The notes under the pieces are model-generated. The model was given only the letters and a program-made list of their open reading frames with translations. It was not told where the DNA came from and searched no databases. Made by a program: the position numbers and the translations under genes. Below are positions 23,867 through 30,677 of a stretch of DNA of 47,846 nt, in pieces (within the stretch, counting starts at the first letter, position 1; every line of letters starts with the position of its first letter). Source of the stretch: Lachnospiraceae bacterium. Its GTDB lineage: Bacteria > Bacillota > Clostridia > Lachnospirales > Lachnospiraceae. Location of the stretch: NCBI GenBank assembly GCA_017940415.1, contig JAGAYR010000008.1, positions 1 to 47,846 of the forward strand. The letters run 5' to 3'.

Positions 23867-24922
23867 TTACCAAGTCTCCAATAATTTTTCGATTTGTTCG
23901 ATCTTTCCGGGGATGTACAGCTTACGCGAGCATTCTTTCATGCATGGTTTATCATCGCAAGTTTTGCAATGCTTTGCAGTCTCCATAAGATCCATTTTCA
24001 GTTTATTGATCGCCCAGAATTCTTTTCCCAGATGGAAGTAATTGAACTGACGGAAAGAGGTATGTATCTCATGTCCGTGAGGGCAAACACATTTCTGACA
24101 TCTGTCGCATCCTATGGGATCAATCTTCTCACGAAGTCTGTCCAGAACCTCTTCGAATTCAAAATGAATGAAAGGATACTCCTCGGCAAAGGCCTGCTTT
24201 TCCTGCTCAAAAGTTCCTATACCAAGTAGCGCGCATGAGAAGGGATACTCAAGCACTCCACCGATAAGTTCCGTTACGGAAAACGGTCCAATGAGAAGTC
24301 CCGCTGCATAAACCTTATTTAATATGAAGCCCTTACCTCTGAATGCCTCCTCATCTCGAATCCGGTCCAGCATTCCTCGCTCCAGAATATTACCGCTTCC
24401 CTGAAGCACATCGACTCTTTCATCAAGTGCAGCACGGTGAAGCACACTGTAATAATGAGATGCGATTCCCGTAAAACCGATCTTGCCTTCTCTTTTCAGA
24501 TCATAAAGAGCATCCAGTGCTCCACCCTTTGCAAAAACCTCATCCGCATTACTGTCATCAACCTGATGTACAAAATAGATATCAGGCTTCGTGCCGAGAT
24601 TTTCCGTAGACCTCAGCACCTCGCGGTAAATATCTCCGCCGCCGTAAAATCTGGCTTTGTCGGAAATAACGATTTTGGATCTGTCTATTGTTTTGACAAA
24701 TTGTCCAAGCTTGAACTCCGCATCGCCGTATTCTTCAGGTATTGCCGTGTCATAAAAGTTGCACCCGTGATCGAATGCTTTTCGCATAATGGCAACCGCC
24801 GTATCCGTATCGGGACTGAAATACTCCGGAAGCACCGGCACATGACCACTTAAGATCGGAATAGTTCCGAATCCCAGCTCGGATACTTTTAGTCCCGTCT
24901 TTCCAAGCTCTCTGTATCTCAT
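23867..24922 (-). CDS. Aldo/keto reductase with C-terminal Cys cluster
   Basis: 351 residues. An aldo/keto reductase barrel starts MRYRELGKTGLKVSELGFG and contains YDTAIPEEYGDAE (catalytic Tyr at EYG) and IYFVHQVDD. The C-terminal part carries CDRCQKCVCPHG and later CKTCDDKPCMKEC. These Cys clusters look like iron-sulfur binding sites seen in a subgroup of AKRs in anaerobes. The protein may couple NAD(P)H or ferredoxin electrons to an unknown carbonyl substrate (inferred). The ATG overlaps the LRR gene stop (TAATG). Confidence 0.85.
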   Translation of the reverse strand: MRYRELGKTGLKVSELGFGTIPILSGHVPVLPEYFSPDTDTAVAIMRKAFDHGCNFYDTAIPEEYGDAEFKLGQFVKTIDRSKIVISDKARFYGGGDIYREVLRSTENLGTKPDIYFVHQVDDSNADEVFAKGGALDALYDLKREGKIGFTGIASHYYSVLHRAALDERVDVLQGSGNILERGMLDRIRDEEAFRGKGFILNKVYAAGLLIGPFSVTELIGGVLEYPFSCALLGIGTFEQEKQAFAEEYPFIHFEFEEVLDRLREKIDPIGCDRCQKCVCPHGHEIHTSFRQFNYFHLGKEFWAINKLKMDLMETAKHCKTCDDKPCMKECSRKLYIPGKIEQIEKLLETW

Positions 24923-27900
24923 TATGTTCTGCCCCCTGCTTTATCTCCCGTATATCTGATAATGGAGATGTTATCGCACCAGGCAAATGCGTTGTCGGCT
25001 ACCTGCGTCTTATCCGAAACATATACTTCCTCAAGTCCGTCACAGAATGCAAAGCTTTCAGCTTCAATTACTTTAACCGATGCAGGCACAGTGATCTTCT
25101 TAAGTGATTTACAACGGAAGAAAGCACGCTCCGGAATCCTCTCTAATCCCTCGGAAATCTTTATCTCCTTCAGATTACTGCAATGTTCAAAGCATCTGCT
25201 TCCGATTTCTTCAACCGCATCCGATAAGTCAATTGATTCAAGTGACTGACATCCGGAGAATGCAAGGGCACCGATGCTTTTAACAGCTGAAGCGCCTTTA
25301 ACTGTCTTTAACCATTTGCTGTTTTCAAAGGCAGACTTTCCGATTACTTCGGTATCATCCGCCAAAACAATACTTTCCAGCAAATGACAATCCTTATATA
25401 CATCGTCCCCCACAGATTTTATTCCTTGAGGGAAAACAAGATTAATAATGTTCCCGGTACTTTCGATGAGATTATGATCATCATCCAGTTTGAAACAGTT
25501 TATGCACTCCGAGAAAATTCTCTTAACAAGTTCCGGAAATCCTGTGCCTGACAAATCAGCAACATTTTCAAGCACGTACTCTTTCCCTGTATGATCTGTG
25601 ATCTTCTTCAGATTGATACAGTTACGAAAAGAAAGTGCTTCTATTGCAAGTTTTTCATAGGGCAGTACAAGATGGGTGATATCAACATTTCCGGCAAAAC
25701 ACCAGCCTGCAATCTTTTTAACGGAAGCGGGGATTGTGACTTTGCCCTTGCATCCCGCGCCGTCAATAAGTATTCCGTTAACGATTACCATTTCGGATTC
25801 CGCGCGCTTGTCATCAAGCCATGCTGTCTGTGAAAACGCATGACTTCCGAATACATTAACGGATTCCGGAACAGAGATTTCTTTTAACCTGATGTGATCT
25901 CTGAATACATCGGCGCCGATTTCTTCTATGTCGTTCGGAATCGTAACGCGTACCGCATCCTGTGAATATCCAAGAAGTCTTTTTCCGTCACGAATGTCAT
26001 AACAGGAATAAATCGATGAGATAAGTTCTTTTACTGCTTCGGGATAAATGTTTCCCGCATGATTCAATCCGTCAGAGAATTTGTCAAATTCATATCGCAC
26101 GCCGTCATATACGATTGTGTTTATCTGTGTGCTTCCGATAAAGACACAGCTCTTTAATACCGTCTTTGAAGTTATCTCCACGGTCTCAAGAGATGACAGA
26201 TCGGCAAATGCATGATATCCGCACACAGTATCATCCAGCGAAACCTTCTTTAGAGAATCACATCTTTCAAAAGCGCGGTCTCCGATATATTTTATTCCGG
26301 TAAAATCAAAAGACTGAAGGTTAACACATTCATCAAAACATCTTGCTTCCATTCCGGAAAGTTCTTTTGCTTCGAATGTGCTCAACTTAAAACAGCCTGC
26401 AAAGCTCTCGGCAGGAAGACTTTCGATTCCCGACAGATGAACTTCCTCCAGATTTCTGCAATAAGCAAAAATCCCTGTGCCCATCTCTTTAACATGAAGA
26501 CTTACCTTTTTTAATTTCGGGCAATTGGAAAATGCTTTGCTTTCAATAATGCAATCGGGAGAATCAATCACAATCTCCTCAAGATCAGGGCAACCTGCAT
26601 ATGCATACTTGCCAATTCTCTTTACTCCCGACAGATCAAGAGTCTTGATTCCTTCTTTATTCGCACTCGAATACGGAGCAATAAATCCCGCGCCGCTCTC
26701 AATAGCAGTTCCTTCTTCAAAGAACAATCTGCTTTTTTCTTTCAGCCCTGCTTCTATCTCTGCAAAATTTCCCGCACGATAAAAAGCGTAAGGATGAATC
26801 TCGGCATTAACCGGCCATGGATCAAATGCCGGAAGTACAAAGCATCTTCTGAATGCATACTCTCCGATAAACTCTATGCCTTCAGGGATATTTATCTTGA
26901 GAAGTTTCTTGCACTCCGCAAAAGCTTCTCTTTCTATACGTTTAAACGAAGCAGGGAGCACCACATTTTGTAAAGTAAGACATCCTTCAAAAGCCTGCTC
27001 CCTGATCTCACGCAAGTTTCCGGGACAAGTTACGGCTTTGAGTCTTTCATTTCCGAAAAAGCATCTCTCTCCGATCACTTCAACTTCTTTGGGAATCCTG
27101 ACCTGCTCTTCATCTCCCAGATACCTTACCAGGATTTTACCGCTGATATAGAAATCTCCCAGAACCTGATCTCTGATCCTGCTTGCGAGTTCATTCGAAG
27201 GTTCTTCCTCCAGAGAATATTCTTCTTCTCCGACATGAACCTTCTTCAGGTTACAACATCCTCTGAATGCTTTATCGTCGGTGATAAGATTCCCTCTTTT
27301 GATAAACACTTCCTCCAGACTGATGCAGTTTAAGAAAGCATTAGCTCTAATCTCACGAAGAGACTCGGGGAACTCGATACTTATAATTCCCTTTTTATCG
27401 AAGAAACAGCTCTTACCGATGGCAGTTATACCTTCAGGCAAACTAACCTTTTTAAGATTAACGTTAAAAGAAACCAGCACTCCTTCTTCAATCTGAAGCG
27501 AATGATAAACACTCTTTGCAATGGCCCTGATCACTTCGGGATAATCCGAATGAGAATTCATCGCATCAATAAGATTCGCAATCTCGTACTCTTTTCCGGA
27601 CAGGGATATTTTGCTCAAGTTGACGCAACCCTCAAACACTTCATCGGAAAAGTTCGAGAAATCAACATTTTCATTTATGTATAGTTCACGAAGAGAGAGA
27701 TTATGTGAAAAGACAGCTCTCTTAATGGACACAGGTCCTTCCATCACAACCTTACGAACTCCGTCGCAATACAGAAATGCATAACTTCCGACGCTCTTTA
27801 CCGAATCCGGGAATATCATCTCTTCCATGCAGTGACATCTGTGGAAAGCATACTCTCCTATCTCGGTTAATCCGCAGGGAAAGTTAACTTCATTAAGCTG

Positions 27901-28095
27901 TCTGCATCCTTTAAATGCACGGTCACCGATTTTCCTAACTGACTCAGGCAACTTAACTTTAAGAAGATGCGCCATACCCTTGAACGCATCATCTCCTATT
28001 TCAGTTACTCCTTCAGGAACAGTTACTTCATTGGCAGTTCCCTTGTAGGCTTTCAGTATTCCGTTTTCTATTTCAAACTCTTCACAAGAAGACAT
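24922..28095 (-). CDS. Large BspA-like leucine-rich repeat protein without signal peptide
   Basis: 1057 residues made almost wholly of LRR_5 (BspA-type) repeats of about 23 residues. The pattern is IGDxAFxxCxxLxxVxLPxSVxxI (examples: IGDRAFKGCRQLNEVNFP, IGEYAFHRCHCMEEMIFP). Three or four longer inserts break the array, with similar lines such as NAMNSHSDYPEVIRAIAKSV and SDGLNHAGNIYPEAVKELI, so it has internal duplications of repeat blocks. Unlike most BspA proteins there is no signal peptide, anchor or membrane helix, so it is probably cytoplasmic. It starts one base after the dus stop codon. Function unknown; protein binding is likely. Confidence 0.85.
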   Translation of the reverse strand: MSSCEEFEIENGILKAYKGTANEVTVPEGVTEIGDDAFKGMAHLLKVKLPESVRKIGDRAFKGCRQLNEVNFPCGLTEIGEYAFHRCHCMEEMIFPDSVKSVGSYAFLYCDGVRKVVMEGPVSIKRAVFSHNLSLRELYINENVDFSNFSDEVFEGCVNLSKISLSGKEYEIANLIDAMNSHSDYPEVIRAIAKSVYHSLQIEEGVLVSFNVNLKKVSLPEGITAIGKSCFFDKKGIISIEFPESLREIRANAFLNCISLEEVFIKRGNLITDDKAFRGCCNLKKVHVGEEEYSLEEEPSNELASRIRDQVLGDFYISGKILVRYLGDEEQVRIPKEVEVIGERCFFGNERLKAVTCPGNLREIREQAFEGCLTLQNVVLPASFKRIEREAFAECKKLLKINIPEGIEFIGEYAFRRCFVLPAFDPWPVNAEIHPYAFYRAGNFAEIEAGLKEKSRLFFEEGTAIESGAGFIAPYSSANKEGIKTLDLSGVKRIGKYAYAGCPDLEEIVIDSPDCIIESKAFSNCPKLKKVSLHVKEMGTGIFAYCRNLEEVHLSGIESLPAESFAGCFKLSTFEAKELSGMEARCFDECVNLQSFDFTGIKYIGDRAFERCDSLKKVSLDDTVCGYHAFADLSSLETVEITSKTVLKSCVFIGSTQINTIVYDGVRYEFDKFSDGLNHAGNIYPEAVKELISSIYSCYDIRDGKRLLGYSQDAVRVTIPNDIEEIGADVFRDHIRLKEISVPESVNVFGSHAFSQTAWLDDKRAESEMVIVNGILIDGAGCKGKVTIPASVKKIAGWCFAGNVDITHLVLPYEKLAIEALSFRNCINLKKITDHTGKEYVLENVADLSGTGFPELVKRIFSECINCFKLDDDHNLIESTGNIINLVFPQGIKSVGDDVYKDCHLLESIVLADDTEVIGKSAFENSKWLKTVKGASAVKSIGALAFSGCQSLESIDLSDAVEEIGSRCFEHCSNLKEIKISEGLERIPERAFFRCKSLKKITVPASVKVIEAESFAFCDGLEEVYVSDKTQVADNAFAWCDNISIIRYTGDKAGGRT

Positions 28096-28096
28096 G

Positions 28097-29023
28097 TTAT
28101 TCTCCGAATATTTCGCCGCAGATTTTTCTAAGTTCAGAAATGCTTCCGCACTTATACAGACTCATCTTGTACTGTTTTGTTCCGGGAAGTTTTTTCATGA
28201 AATAAGAAGAAAGCTTTTTGATATATGTAAGAACATAGAGTTCGTCAAAACATTCTTCGGCAATATCTATCTGTTCCATGATAAGATCATATTTGGTCTC
28301 TGTGATCTCTCGTCCTGTCAGTTCAGAAAAAATAAGCGGATTTTCAAATCCGTATCTTGCAAGCATAACTCCGTCGGCACCCGTCTTATCCATCATTTGC
28401 TGTGCCTTTTCCACGGAGTCTATTCCGCCGTTTGCAAATACAGGGATCTTCACAACAGACTTGGCAAGCTTTATATAATCATACAAAGGCTCGCCTTCAT
28501 ACATCATGTTTCTGGTCCTTCCGTGAACCGTTATCATATCCGCGCCTGAGTCTTCGCACATCCTGGCAAACTCTTCTATCACGATATTTCGTTCATTCAT
28601 ACCTATGCGGCATTTAACGGATACAACCTTGCCGCTTCGCTTACATGCTTCGATTATTTTGGAAGCCGTGGGCAGATTGTTAAGCAGTGCGCTGCCTTCT
28701 CCCGATTTAACCACATTGGGAACCGGGCAACCCATGTTGATATCTATAACATCAAAAGGCTGCAGCCTTTCGCTCATAACCGCTCTTTCAAACACCGTCG
28801 GAACAGAGCCCAGAAGCTGCACGCACTTTAACTTCTCCCTGTCATCCGTGTATAACAGCTTGGTGGTTGCCCCGTCATTGTATTTGAGGCCGTCGGAACT
28901 GACTATTTCGGTATATGCGGATCCCGCGCCCAGCTTATATGCCATCAGGCGGAAAGGAAAACAGGTATAACCCGCCAGCGGTGCCATAAGTACATTGGAC
29001 TGAAATCTGATCCCACCGACCAT
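28097..29023 (-). CDS. tRNA-dihydrouridine synthase
   Basis: FMN enzyme that reduces uridine in tRNA, 308 residues, DusB-like. Visible are VLMAPLAGYTCFPFRLM (flavin-binding loop), INMGCPVPNVVKSGEGSALL with the catalytic Cys, VKCRIGMNE, MITVHGRTRNMMYEG and ANGGIDS. The frame is open to 29143, but the only strong promoter (TGGTATAAT at 29072-29080) would start the RNA near 29065. The ATG at 29023 has GGTGA at good spacing, so it is chosen; ATG at 29065 would be leaderless. First gene of the eight-gene operon ending with the RsuA-like gene. Confidence 0.87.
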   Translation of the reverse strand: MVGGIRFQSNVLMAPLAGYTCFPFRLMAYKLGAGSAYTEIVSSDGLKYNDGATTKLLYTDDREKLKCVQLLGSVPTVFERAVMSERLQPFDVIDINMGCPVPNVVKSGEGSALLNNLPTASKIIEACKRSGKVVSVKCRIGMNERNIVIEEFARMCEDSGADMITVHGRTRNMMYEGEPLYDYIKLAKSVVKIPVFANGGIDSVEKAQQMMDKTGADGVMLARYGFENPLIFSELTGREITETKYDLIMEQIDIAEECFDELYVLTYIKKLSSYFMKKLPGTKQYKMSLYKCGSISELRKICGEIFGE

Positions 29024-29071
29024 GATCTCGTCACCAAGTTTTCTTTTTACTGCGTTTAGTCCCATGCGTCG

Positions 29072-29080
29072 ATTATACCA
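29072..29080 (-). promoter_or_regulatory. Extended -10 promoter of the dus operon
   Basis: On the minus strand TGGTATAAT is a perfect extended -10. No good -35 stands upstream, as expected for that promoter type. It is back to back with the mgtE promoter, whose -35 begins 20 bases away. Confidence 0.6.
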
Positions 29081-29099
29081 TTTTTTATGCCCAAAAGGC

Positions 29100-29128
29100 T
29101 TGACTTTCCCTCCCTCGGAAAATAGAAT
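29100..29128 (+). promoter_or_regulatory. Promoter of mgtE
   Basis: TTGACT at 29100-29105, 17 bases, TAGAAT at 29123-29128. Transcription from about 29135 would give a leader of roughly 190 bases before the mgtE start. Confidence 0.7.
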
Positions 29129-29130
29129 TA

Positions 29131-29327
29131 GGGCGAAAACCAATCGGTTTTAAATCTATCGGAAGGGTGGTGATCATATGACAGGTGACAGTCGAAGTAC
29201 TGATTCTGTTCCCCGAAGTACACATTATATGATCACGGCTAGTTTACGCCTCACCACCCGGAATTCCCTTTAACAGAGCATTCCCTTAAGTGGGGGCGGG
29301 CTTTGCCGTCTCAAAGGGTGATGCAAA
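29131..29327 (+). promoter_or_regulatory. Long structured leader of mgtE
   Basis: Several stems are visible. AAAACC/GGTTTT lies at 29136-29151. GGGTGGTGA (29165-29173) pairs with TCACCACCC (29251-29259). TGATCATAT (29171-29179) pairs with ATATGATCA (29227-29235). The last two share three bases. CCCTTT (29266-29271) can pair with AAAGGG (29313-29318), the ribosome binding site of mgtE. I could not match it to the M-box or any other riboswitch I know. It looks like a switch, with either metal sensing or leader translation deciding the fold (inferred). Confidence 0.55.
29178..29273 (+). CDS. Possible 31-residue leader peptide of mgtE
   Basis: A short frame ATG...TAA lies inside the mgtE leader and encodes a polar, Ser/Thr/Arg-rich peptide beginning MTGDSRSTDSVPRSTH. 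GGTGGTGAT just before it is close to the GGAGGTGAT ideal, although spacing is short. Both the ribosome site and the start codon lie in stems, so translation would change the fold. The peptide does not look like a secreted or toxic one. It may be a regulatory leader peptide, or chance. Confidence 0.35.
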   Translation: MTGDSRSTDSVPRSTHYMITASLRLTTRNSL

Positions 29328-30677
29328 ATGGAAGAAAAGAATGTATTTGACGAGCTTCTTACTCTCCTTGAAGGAAAAGAGTACGCGAAGCTCCGTGAGA
29401 TTTTGTCCGAGCATAACGATGCGGATATCGCCGCATGGATCGAAGAGCTGGACGAAGAACACATGCCTAAACTTTTCCGTATTCTGACCAAGGATCAGGC
29501 TGCGGATGTTTTCTCATACCTTGATGTAGATCTCCAGCAGAAGATTATAAGTGTAATGTCCGATAAGGAAGCTGCGGGGATCATCGATAACCTGATGGCC
29601 GACGATGCTGCAGACCTGATGGAAGAAATGCCTGCCAATATCGTAACAAGGATCCTGGCTAAGGCAAGTCCCGACACCAGACGTGAGATCAATCAGCTCC
29701 TCCGCTATCCCGAAGACAGCGCCGGAAGCATCATGACCGTGGAGTATGTTGACCTCAAGGAAAGCTCTACCGTCAAAGAAGCAATAGACAGAATCCGCAG
29801 AGTCGGTGTAGATTCCGAAACCATTAATGTCTGCTATGTCCTCGACAGTGGAAGACACCTGATAGGAACCGTTGCATTAAGATACCTCCTTTTGTCCAAG
29901 GATGATGAGATAATCGGGGACATAATGCATGAAAATGTCATTGCCCTCAACACTCTGATGGACCAGGAAGAGGTTGCTTCACAGTTCAAAAAATACGACT
30001 TCACCACAATGCCGGTAGTCGATAACGAGAATCGTCTTGTCGGAATTATCACCGTCGACGATATCGTGGACATCATGGAAGAAGAGGCAACCGAGGACAT
30101 GGAAAAGATGGCAGCTATTCTCCCGTCCGACAAGACCTACATGAAGACGAGCGTATTCGAAACATATAAAAAGAGAATTCCCTGGCTCCTTCTCCTCATG
30201 GTAAGTGCTACATTCACCGGAGCAATCATCAAATCATTTGAAGATGCGCTCAGCGTATGTGCGGTTCTGGTAGCTTATATACCAATGCTCATGGATACCG
30301 GAGGAAATGCCGGCGGACAGGCATCAGTTACCGTCATCCGCGGACTCTCCCTCGGTGAGATAGAATACTCGGATGTACCCGGAGTTATCTGGAAAGAAGT
30401 ACGGGTTGCAGTCTTCTGCGGACTGACCCTTGCGGCCGCAAACTTCGTAAAGCTGCTTGTATTCGACAGACTGGCGATTCCTGTTGCTCTAACCATCTGC
30501 CTTACACTTATCGCTGCAGTTCTGATGGCAATGCTGATAGGATGTATGCTTCCCGTCGGAGCTAAAAGGCTTGGATTTGACCCCGCGGTCATGGCAAGTC
30601 CATTCATCACAACAATCGTCGATGCTCTATCACTTCTGGCATATTTCAGAATCGCAACAATGATACTTAAACTATAG
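29328..30677 (+). CDS. mgtE: Magnesium transporter MgtE
   Basis: Mg2+ channel/transporter of the inner membrane, 449 residues, the usual length. The cytoplasmic N domain (about 1-125) contains DIAAWIEELDEEHMPKLF and LMADDAADLMEEMP. Two CBS domains (about 130-255) follow, with YPEDSAGSIMTVEYVDL and YDFTTMPVVDNENRLVGIIT. The pore domain (about 275-449) has five helices including DTGGNAGGQASVTVIRG, the conserved pore signature. AAGGGTGA before the ATG gives the start. It is the only convincing plus-strand gene, with its own promoter, long leader and terminator. Confidence 0.95.
   Translation: MEEKNVFDELLTLLEGKEYAKLREILSEHNDADIAAWIEELDEEHMPKLFRILTKDQAADVFSYLDVDLQQKIISVMSDKEAAGIIDNLMADDAADLMEEMPANIVTRILAKASPDTRREINQLLRYPEDSAGSIMTVEYVDLKESSTVKEAIDRIRRVGVDSETINVCYVLDSGRHLIGTVALRYLLLSKDDEIIGDIMHENVIALNTLMDQEEVASQFKKYDFTTMPVVDNENRLVGIITVDDIVDIMEEEATEDMEKMAAILPSDKTYMKTSVFETYKKRIPWLLLLMVSATFTGAIIKSFEDALSVCAVLVAYIPMLMDTGGNAGGQASVTVIRGLSLGEIEYSDVPGVIWKEVRVAVFCGLTLAAANFVKLLVFDRLAIPVALTICLTLIAAVLMAMLIGCMLPVGAKRLGFDPAVMASPFITTIVDALSLLAYFRIATMILKL

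Follow-up and report, generated by a model that had tools for sequence, protein, structure and literature searches.

A conserved leader-peptide element upstream of mgtE in Lachnospiraceae that is probably operated by the ribosome

Background

Among the described systems closest to the one reported here is mgtQ of the Salmonella mgtCBRU operon, which lies before mgtB. In the excerpted account its RNA forms stems 1:2, 2:3 and 3:4, of which 3:4 masks the ribosome-binding site of the transporter gene; occupancy of the leader or abortion of its translation favors 2:3, and control is exerted at the level of translation (PMC8092293). mgtQ itself is there described as an eight-codon frame with Asp2 and Glu5, situated between two operon genes of a proteobacterium (PMC8092293). 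A second system is MgtL, the leader peptide of E. coli and Salmonella mgtA, which combines acidic residues with Pro-Leu-Pro-Arg (PMC8934632, in excerpt). Abortion of its translation at the EPDP sequence in low Mg2+ turns mgtA on, with EttA having a stabilizing role (PMC11282234, likewise in excerpt). Sensing of Mg2+ through a nascent peptide is so far known from these enterobacterial mgtA and mgtB genes of E. coli and Salmonella. Other systems are built around an aptamer or a candidate aptamer. The M-box (ykoK leader, RF00380) is found before mgtE genes. In the Mycobacterium tuberculosis pe20 operon, which is needed in low Mg2+, an M-box is followed by a conserved uORF (PMC12810186, as excerpted). 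The mgtE motif SRC-65-1, reported only from Thioalkalivibrio, is a riboswitch candidate distinct from the M-box, in which the Shine-Dalgarno sequence (SD) and AUG of mgtE lie in a stem (PMC11109978, in part).

Here we describe the leader of an mgtE gene from a Lachnospiraceae bacterium (GenBank assembly GCA_017940415.1, contig JAGAYR010000008.1); the whole stretch of 47,846 nucleotides that was analyzed is referred to as the window. Like mgtQ as excerpted, this leader places a short ORF, preceded by a strong SD, in front of a gene for a Mg2+ transporter, and it is predicted in silico to form three competing pairings, with 3:4 over the transporter SD and 2:3 favored when region 1 is covered. 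It differs from mgtQ in its 31 codons, its D-x-V-P-R-S core, its own promoter, the MgtE family of the transporter and its occurrence in Lachnospiraceae. The likeness to MgtL, as far as the excerpted accounts go, lies in the peptide: DPTPLPRRR of MgtL resembles DNPLPGRS of relatives of the window, and both use CGA for the first Arg that follows the prolines (CCT CTC CCT CGA in E. coli K-12, NC_000913; CCT CTC CCC GGG CGA AGT in the leader of locus L180). MgtL, however, is described as acting on Rho-dependent transcription termination and as having EPDP at its start (PMC11282234), whereas the platform in the window looks translational, has its core at codons 9-14 and precedes a gene of another transporter family. 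In pe20, as excerpted, the M-box controls the uORF (PMC12810186), whereas no aptamer was found in the window. The leader shares with SRC-65-1 the character of a structured non-M-box mgtE leader; the part of the description at hand mentions no uORF for SRC-65-1 (PMC11109978). By title and opening, the open-license PMC literature yielded no description of an mgtE leader peptide or uORF of this kind, or of one in Lachnospiraceae.

Results and discussion

The mgtE locus and its leader region

The mgtE gene (29328..30677) encodes a Mg2+ channel of 449 aa with the Pfam domains MgtE, MgtE_N and CBS; it lies on the forward strand, as do all leader features given below. Among the matches listed, from which near-identical records were possibly left out, the closest is the MgtE of Lachnospiraceae bacterium P6A3, at 98% identity. 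On the opposite strand upstream there are a tRNA-dihydrouridine-synthase-like protein (28097-29143, named by eye), the start of which adjoins the mgtE promoter, and a long leucine-rich-repeat-like protein of 1057 aa (24922-28095, named by eye from its translation). The genome has a second MgtE paralog, 27% identical (G000:C23:3722-5071, locus L002), and inspection by eye of the region upstream of L002 revealed no such leader.

The promoter consists of a -35 element TTGACT and a -10 element TAGAAT separated by 17 nt (29100..29128) and agrees with the consensus at 10 of 12 positions; TTGACTT together with TAGAAT or TAAAAT was also seen by eye upstream of the leader in close relatives. Fold prediction places a small hairpin, AAAACC/GGTTTT, where the transcript presumably begins (29136..29151). 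Close relatives have, by eye, a counterpart of this hairpin in which the letters differ. Region 1 (29161..29180; GGAAGGGTGGTGATCATATG), delimited from the ORF list and folding, comprises the leader ribosome site and start codon. The leader ORF itself (29178..29273), recognized as a reading frame and by comparison, runs for 31 codons from the ATG at 29178 to the TAA at 29271-29273; its peptide, which begins MTGDSRSTDSVPRST, reads MTGDSRSTDSVPRSTHYMITASLRLTTRNSL and contains the core DSVPRS (29202..29219), with Arg as CGA (29214-29216) and Ser as AGT (29217-29219). A second CGA AGT pair is found at 29193-29198. Region 2 (29227..29259) includes ATATGATCA (29227-29235) and TCACCACCC (29251-29259), both of which pair with region 1, and the segment GCCTCAC (29248-29254), the alternative partner of which is region 3. 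Region 3 (29278..29299) is made up of the anti-SD arm GCATTCCCTT (29278-29287), the segment GTGGGGGC (29290-29297) complementary to region 2, and the apical stem arm GGGGCGG (29293-29299). Region 4 (29306..29324; AAAGGGTGAT) is the mgtE ribosome site, within hairpin 3:4. No site resembling an intrinsic terminator was seen in 29131-29327.

A first-pass annotation of this DNA had pointed to a structured leader on the strength of the promoter, two long stems, the 31-codon frame and a CCCTTT in front of mgtE. All of these features are indeed present, and the leader SD and start codon do lie within the stems 29165-29173/29251-29259 and 29171-29179/29227-29235. Since this sequence, folded by itself, does only modestly better than its shuffled versions (z -1.68; 7 of 200 shuffles equally good), the case for the leader rests on comparison with related loci.

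Collection and classification of mgtE upstream regions

Relatives of mgtE were gathered from 97 genomes (78 with a match), from 160 genomes of the family (75 with a match, E 1e-90) and from the best 80 contigs of a named collection. The resulting 201 loci gave 183 distinct upstream regions of at least 200 bases, though the relatives compared are not independent samples. A class filter flagged 71 regions as class A, the kind seen in the window, and 49 as class B, in which the leader starts with M-D or M-E. After curation by eye class A numbered 61 (five spurious cases dropped, six moved to B and L161 added), and class B was cut to 35 and then raised to 37 by the addition of L104 and L105. The remaining 85 of the 183 regions are on neither list. 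Many of these 85 loci have, by eye, an ACT-domain-like reading frame close upstream. A GTG-started ORF, MEGRSQKMKADNNYH..., found 321 bases before mgtE at L087, resembles the class B leader of L082; it falls outside the searched zone and was left off the lists, and leaders further upstream have thus possibly been missed. As the class lists were picked with the motif in view, a motif count and a test for an open frame, the former made without reference to the lists, serve as a guard.

Evidence for a coding element

The class A leaders vary in length and start but have in common the core D-x-(V/L/A/I)-P-(x)-R-S, which occurs as DSVPRS in the window and elsewhere as DSSVPRS, DNPLPGRS, DPAPGRS, DVPERS and DIPPHERS; the differences in core length are of whole codons. 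In the list-independent count, in which short ORFs starting 40-300 bases before mgtE were set against control ORFs from elsewhere at the same loci on both strands, the pattern [DE]x1-4Px0-2RS was present in 52 of 157 SD-preceded leader-zone ORFs and in 6 of 751 controls. Relaxing the SD limit brought the number of control ORFs with the motif to 21, none of which had CGAAGT in the first 100 bases. Of 50 cores, 44 use CGA for their Arg, as compared to 4.7% of the 1114 Arg codons of mgtE at the same loci, and 43 use AGT for their Ser, as compared to 17.2% of the 1259 Ser codons there; the 11 of 61 class A leaders without an exact core were left out of this count. One subclade has CGG AGC instead of CGA AGT, and the Arg-Ser residues therefore outlast the change of codons. 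The other core residues, D, S, V, L, P and G, show synonymous variation. Across the 18 window-type leaders, the ORF frame shows 340 synonymous against 282 nonsynonymous single-base codon differences, and the other two frames show 153/386 and 90/506, all counted over sequence pairs rather than independent events. We take these observations to support a coding element on comparative grounds, and the conservation that the first-pass annotation had wished to see for the short frame exists at the level of protein in many relatives.

Conservation of this kind could also signify that the ORF encodes a functional small protein, with the RNA structure being mere context in the mRNA. We consider this very improbable, as conservation of the peptide stops after the core, beyond which the C-terminal part is either free or overlaps mgtE in another frame, and no Pfam (4 scanned) or NCBIfam (9 scanned) match to the leader peptides was recovered.

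Class B leaders have Arg-Ser within their first 16 codons in 11 of 35 cases, 10 of these 11 with CGA AGT. Classes A and B retain the hexamer CGAAGT to a far greater extent than their amino acids demand, a bias that may stem from slow decoding, from an arrest motif or from a constraint at the level of the RNA. The shared CGA AGT pair and position suggest that the two classes are of common descent. Acidic residues are found in the D-x-(V/L)-P of class A and in the M-D/E starts of class B, with few in the core of the window and mostly one in class A cores. The strongest constraint falls on Pro-(Gly)-Arg-Ser and on CGA AGT, which fits decoding or arrest better than destabilization by acidic residues, of which class A has few. 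The same translational attenuator might respond to something other than Mg2+, such as CGA decoding, charged tRNA-Arg or tRNA-Pro, EF-P, an ABC-F protein or a ribosome-targeting drug. We regard such a signal as rather unlikely for reasons that emerge from the genomic position of the element and from its association with the M-box, both considered below.

Restriction to mgtE and overlap with its start

A profile of 32 leader cores searched against 40 genomes found 11 places with E < 1e-3, all of them directly before mgtE or a fragment of it, and its weaker matches look like chance. A DNA pattern for P-G-R-S, run over 295 genomes of the order, found 12 distinct places in 12 genomes (8 matches for the reversed control): seven are leaders, each followed by an ORF of 448-454 aa with an MgtE-like N-terminus by eye, and the other five look like chance. 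Thus, neither the profile in 40 genomes nor the P-G-R-S pattern in 295 genomes uncovered a copy of the leader before any other gene. A looser pattern in the genome of the window matched the leader (twice) and three other places, which is no more than its reversed control (4).

The relation of the leader to mgtE differs between clades. In the group of the window the leader stops approximately 50-65 bases before mgtE, near the hairpin masking the mgtE ribosome site. In class A outside this group the leader frame is open from the core through the ATG of mgtE in 41 of 43 distinct segments, as against 11.8 expected from mononucleotide shuffles and 4 and 7 in the other two frames; all 41 overlapping frames are out of frame with mgtE.

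Pairings in the leader RNA

The first-pass annotation had proposed that the two stems, by sharing bases, form the alternatives of a switch. We rejected this candidate: only 29171-29173 are common to the two, which fold together as parts of one composite helix, 1:2, and the pairing that competes is 2:3. A possible partner for region 1 exists further downstream in most loci of class A and in many of class B, and the letters involved differ considerably between loci. Compared to shuffled 3' stretches, the pairing is significant (p<0.05) for 22 of the 61 leaders examined in class A and for 15 of the 35 in class B. Swapping of 3' stretches between loci, which is a better test of covariation than shuffling for 1:2, placed the true partner in the best 10% for 39 of 72 distinct arms, where about seven are expected, and the longest perfect helix is at least 9 in 72%, versus 33% of shuffles. 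Within the group of the window this helix hardly varies and shows no covariation, and it is absent from the seven leaders of the MDAGASYHS type that were tested. RNAalifold on the window-type set returned the outer part of 1:2 and the top of hairpin 3:4 with changes on both sides in only 2 of 22 pairs, and the pairings were consequently tested singly. A MAFFT alignment of the short type was also tried and was not used for pair counts, its 3' arms being out of register.

Among 13 distinct cases, pairing 3:4 surpasses shuffles at p 0.02 or less in all but one, L140 (0.09), and in six of the 13 the true partner ranks above every swapped one. It is retained as the arms change, from GCATTCCCTT/AAGGGTGATGC in the window to AAATCC/GGATTT in L006 and CTCTTCC/GGAGGAG in L137. 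In the alignment 69.7% of cells are paired, compared to at most 55.1% when the arms are slid; the covariation score is 0.265, compared to at most 0.180 slid, and is reached by 15 of 500 shuffles (the alignment is not structure-aware). Changes on both sides are seen in 8 of 17 pairs, a number that shuffles often attain (228 of 500). The CCCTTT that had been suggested to mask the mgtE ribosome site is present (29266-29271), but the better supported mask is GCATTCCCTT at 29278-29287, pairing with 29314-29324.

The third pairing joins GCCTCAC in region 2 to the complementary GTGRGGC in region 3. Here 89.3% of cells are paired, and sliding the arms gives no more than 54.1%; a single pair, in L133, has changes on both sides. 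No measure of 2:3 covariation rises above column shuffles in the group of the window because the letters are too constant. Covariation, the absence of which had been named as a refutation of the leader, is hence detected for 3:4, by some measures and not by others, and for 1:2 across clades, but for neither 1:2 nor 2:3 within the group of the window. Taken together, comparison and modeling, with folding signals of moderate strength, support the pairings 1:2 and 3:4 and the complementarity of 2:3.

Folding with a ribosome placed on the leader

Blocking region 1 in 16 window-type loci takes 2:3 from 0.13 to 5.44 expected pairs. At the same time, exposure of the mgtE SD increases from 0.24 to 0.38 unpaired, or to 0.48 if the block extends through the core. 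For the window alone the corresponding change is from 0.18 to 0.51 (0.56 through the core); none of 40 shuffles shows a shift as large as that to 0.51, and shuffled leaders with region 1 blocked change by 0.012 on average. Taken singly, 6 of the 16 window-type loci pass at 5%, L137 and L138 move in the opposite direction, and L006, L007 and L140 hardly move. In L010, L011 and L028 the free fold varies between 2:3 and 1:2 with the ends chosen for the stretch. Over 18 loci with a baseline of 0.26, covering the leader start gives 0.31 and covering from the start through the core gives 0.39, while a ribosome on the core alone leaves exposure of the mgtE SD unchanged (0.26 and 0.26). For the window type, the model therefore requires that region 1 be occupied too. 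Similarly, 24 class B leaders ending more than 50 bases before mgtE shift on average from 0.26 to 0.39 (shuffles 0.008), with 6 of 24 passing 5% singly and L043 and L092 going in the opposite direction. The first-pass annotation had also raised a translation-coupled leader, and this part of it fares well: the short frame is conserved and the predicted fold responds to ribosome occupancy.

The class A leaders of the short overlapping type respond in reverse. In 18 of these, hand-picked from 43, blocking region 1 changes exposure by -0.139: an idle leader leaves the mgtE SD exposed (0.75, compared to 0.62 in shuffles), and covering region 1 lowers this value to 0.61. A single sign of control for all types is therefore an assumption.

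These results can be accommodated in the following scheme. In idle RNA of the window type, region 1, with the leader SD and AUG, would be held in 1:2, and 3:4 would mask the mgtE ribosome site, keeping the gene off. Ribosomes on region 1, whether they sit on the start codon or are backed up behind another that slows down or is lost at DSVPRS, would allow 2:3 to form; hairpin 3:4 would then open and mgtE would be translated. A ribosome completing the leader would cross region 2, after which 1:2 and 3:4 would re-form and return the gene to the off state. In the overlapping sister type, full translation of the leader would run over the start of mgtE, with 1:2 leaving the mgtE site open. Full translation there would cover the mgtE start, and incomplete translation of the leader would thus again be the on state.

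The stop codon of the window-type leader lies close before the anti-SD arm, and a block over the stop region raises the mgtE SD from 0.26 to 0.36 unpaired in 18 loci. A ribosome ending at the TAA at 29273, near region 3, could thus itself open 3:4 in the modeled fold, which would give control of the opposite sign. In its simplest form, this would mean that termination at 29271-29273 merely couples mgtE to its leader, with no sensing involved. We give little credence to coupling as the entire explanation, as it leaves the conserved core, the CGA codon, the 2:3 complementarity and the overlapping type unexplained.

The M-box and the link to Mg2+

No Rfam family matches the window at the gathering score, nor 29050-29420 at E up to 10, and this includes the M-box (RF00380). 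The first reading of the sequence, which had seen no M-box in the leader, is borne out, and a match to a known riboswitch, which it had listed as a refutation, did not materialize. Its suggestion that metal binding selects one fold found no support, as nothing tested points to an aptamer. A riboswitch binding Mg2+ directly, or some other ligand, with an ORF that is incidental to the stems, would account for a highly structured leader upstream of a Mg2+ channel gene in a genus without a detected M-box. It would not account for changes by whole codons, for the synonymous variation noted above or for sister leaders that hold their frame open over the mgtE start. Moreover, the leader lacks an Rfam match, and the central RNA has, by eye, no fold common to all clades. 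This explanation hence appears improbable to us.

With stricter filters, by which weak matches are lost, the M-box was found in none of 31 genomes of the genus of the window and in 3 of 59 genomes overall, although it precedes mgtE genes elsewhere. Scans of upstream regions, mostly of about 440 bases, covered all 37 class B loci, 15 of the 61 class A loci and 26 loci on neither list; an M-box lay upstream of the leader in ten loci, all of class B. The ten loci are L048, L051, L096, L104-L108, L110 and L114. As judged by eye, the M-box comes first in them and is mostly followed by a terminator-like hairpin, after which come the leader and mgtE; the related leader therefore stands in series with a Mg2+ riboswitch before the same gene. 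The short ORF of these tandem loci often reads MDAGASYHS..., with a frame running over the mgtE start, as two regulators in series. In the line of the window the leader stands alone, without an M-box. Separately, a Clostridiales-1 RNA (RF01699) was observed near mgtE in two relatives (L025, 1341-1497; L078, 54-211).

Both the confinement of the element to mgtE in the searches made and the M-box before a related leader in ten relatives, which points to Mg2+ or to Mg2+-dependent translation, argue against the non-Mg2+ signals considered above. By analogy with these tandems, and from the identity of the gene, the signal is probably Mg2+. The sensor would then probably be the translating ribosome, which low Mg2+ may slow or destabilize on the acidic-Pro-Arg(CGA)-Ser core, as in MgtL and MgtQ.

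Conclusions

The leader of mgtE in the window is real and conserved, and is probably operated by the ribosome. The best reading is that of a fresh case of the device represented by MgtL and MgtQ, rather than a new riboswitch. Specifically, we favor, with moderate confidence, a uORF-based translational attenuator that opens mgtE when translation of its leader peptide is slowed or aborted, probably in low Mg2+. We infer that the leader is translated in the cell, that it responds to Mg2+ and that the sign of control is as outlined. A wider proposal, which we put forward tentatively, is that the ribosome serves as the Mg2+ sensor for mgtE across much of Lachnospiraceae by means of a D-x-(V/L)-P-(G)-Arg(CGA)-Ser(AGT) element on which ribosomes halt or are shed when Mg2+ is low, and that this element evolved separately from MgtL and MgtQ, acting in tandem with the M-box or, as in the line of the window, replacing it. 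If true, the ribosome would have been adopted as a gauge of Mg2+ more than once, through an arrest or destabilization motif with a rare CGA codon that is open to testing in vitro. The replacement of one Mg2+ sensor by another would become testable in the tandems of M-box and leader, and the control of mgtE in genomes that lack an M-box would be explained.
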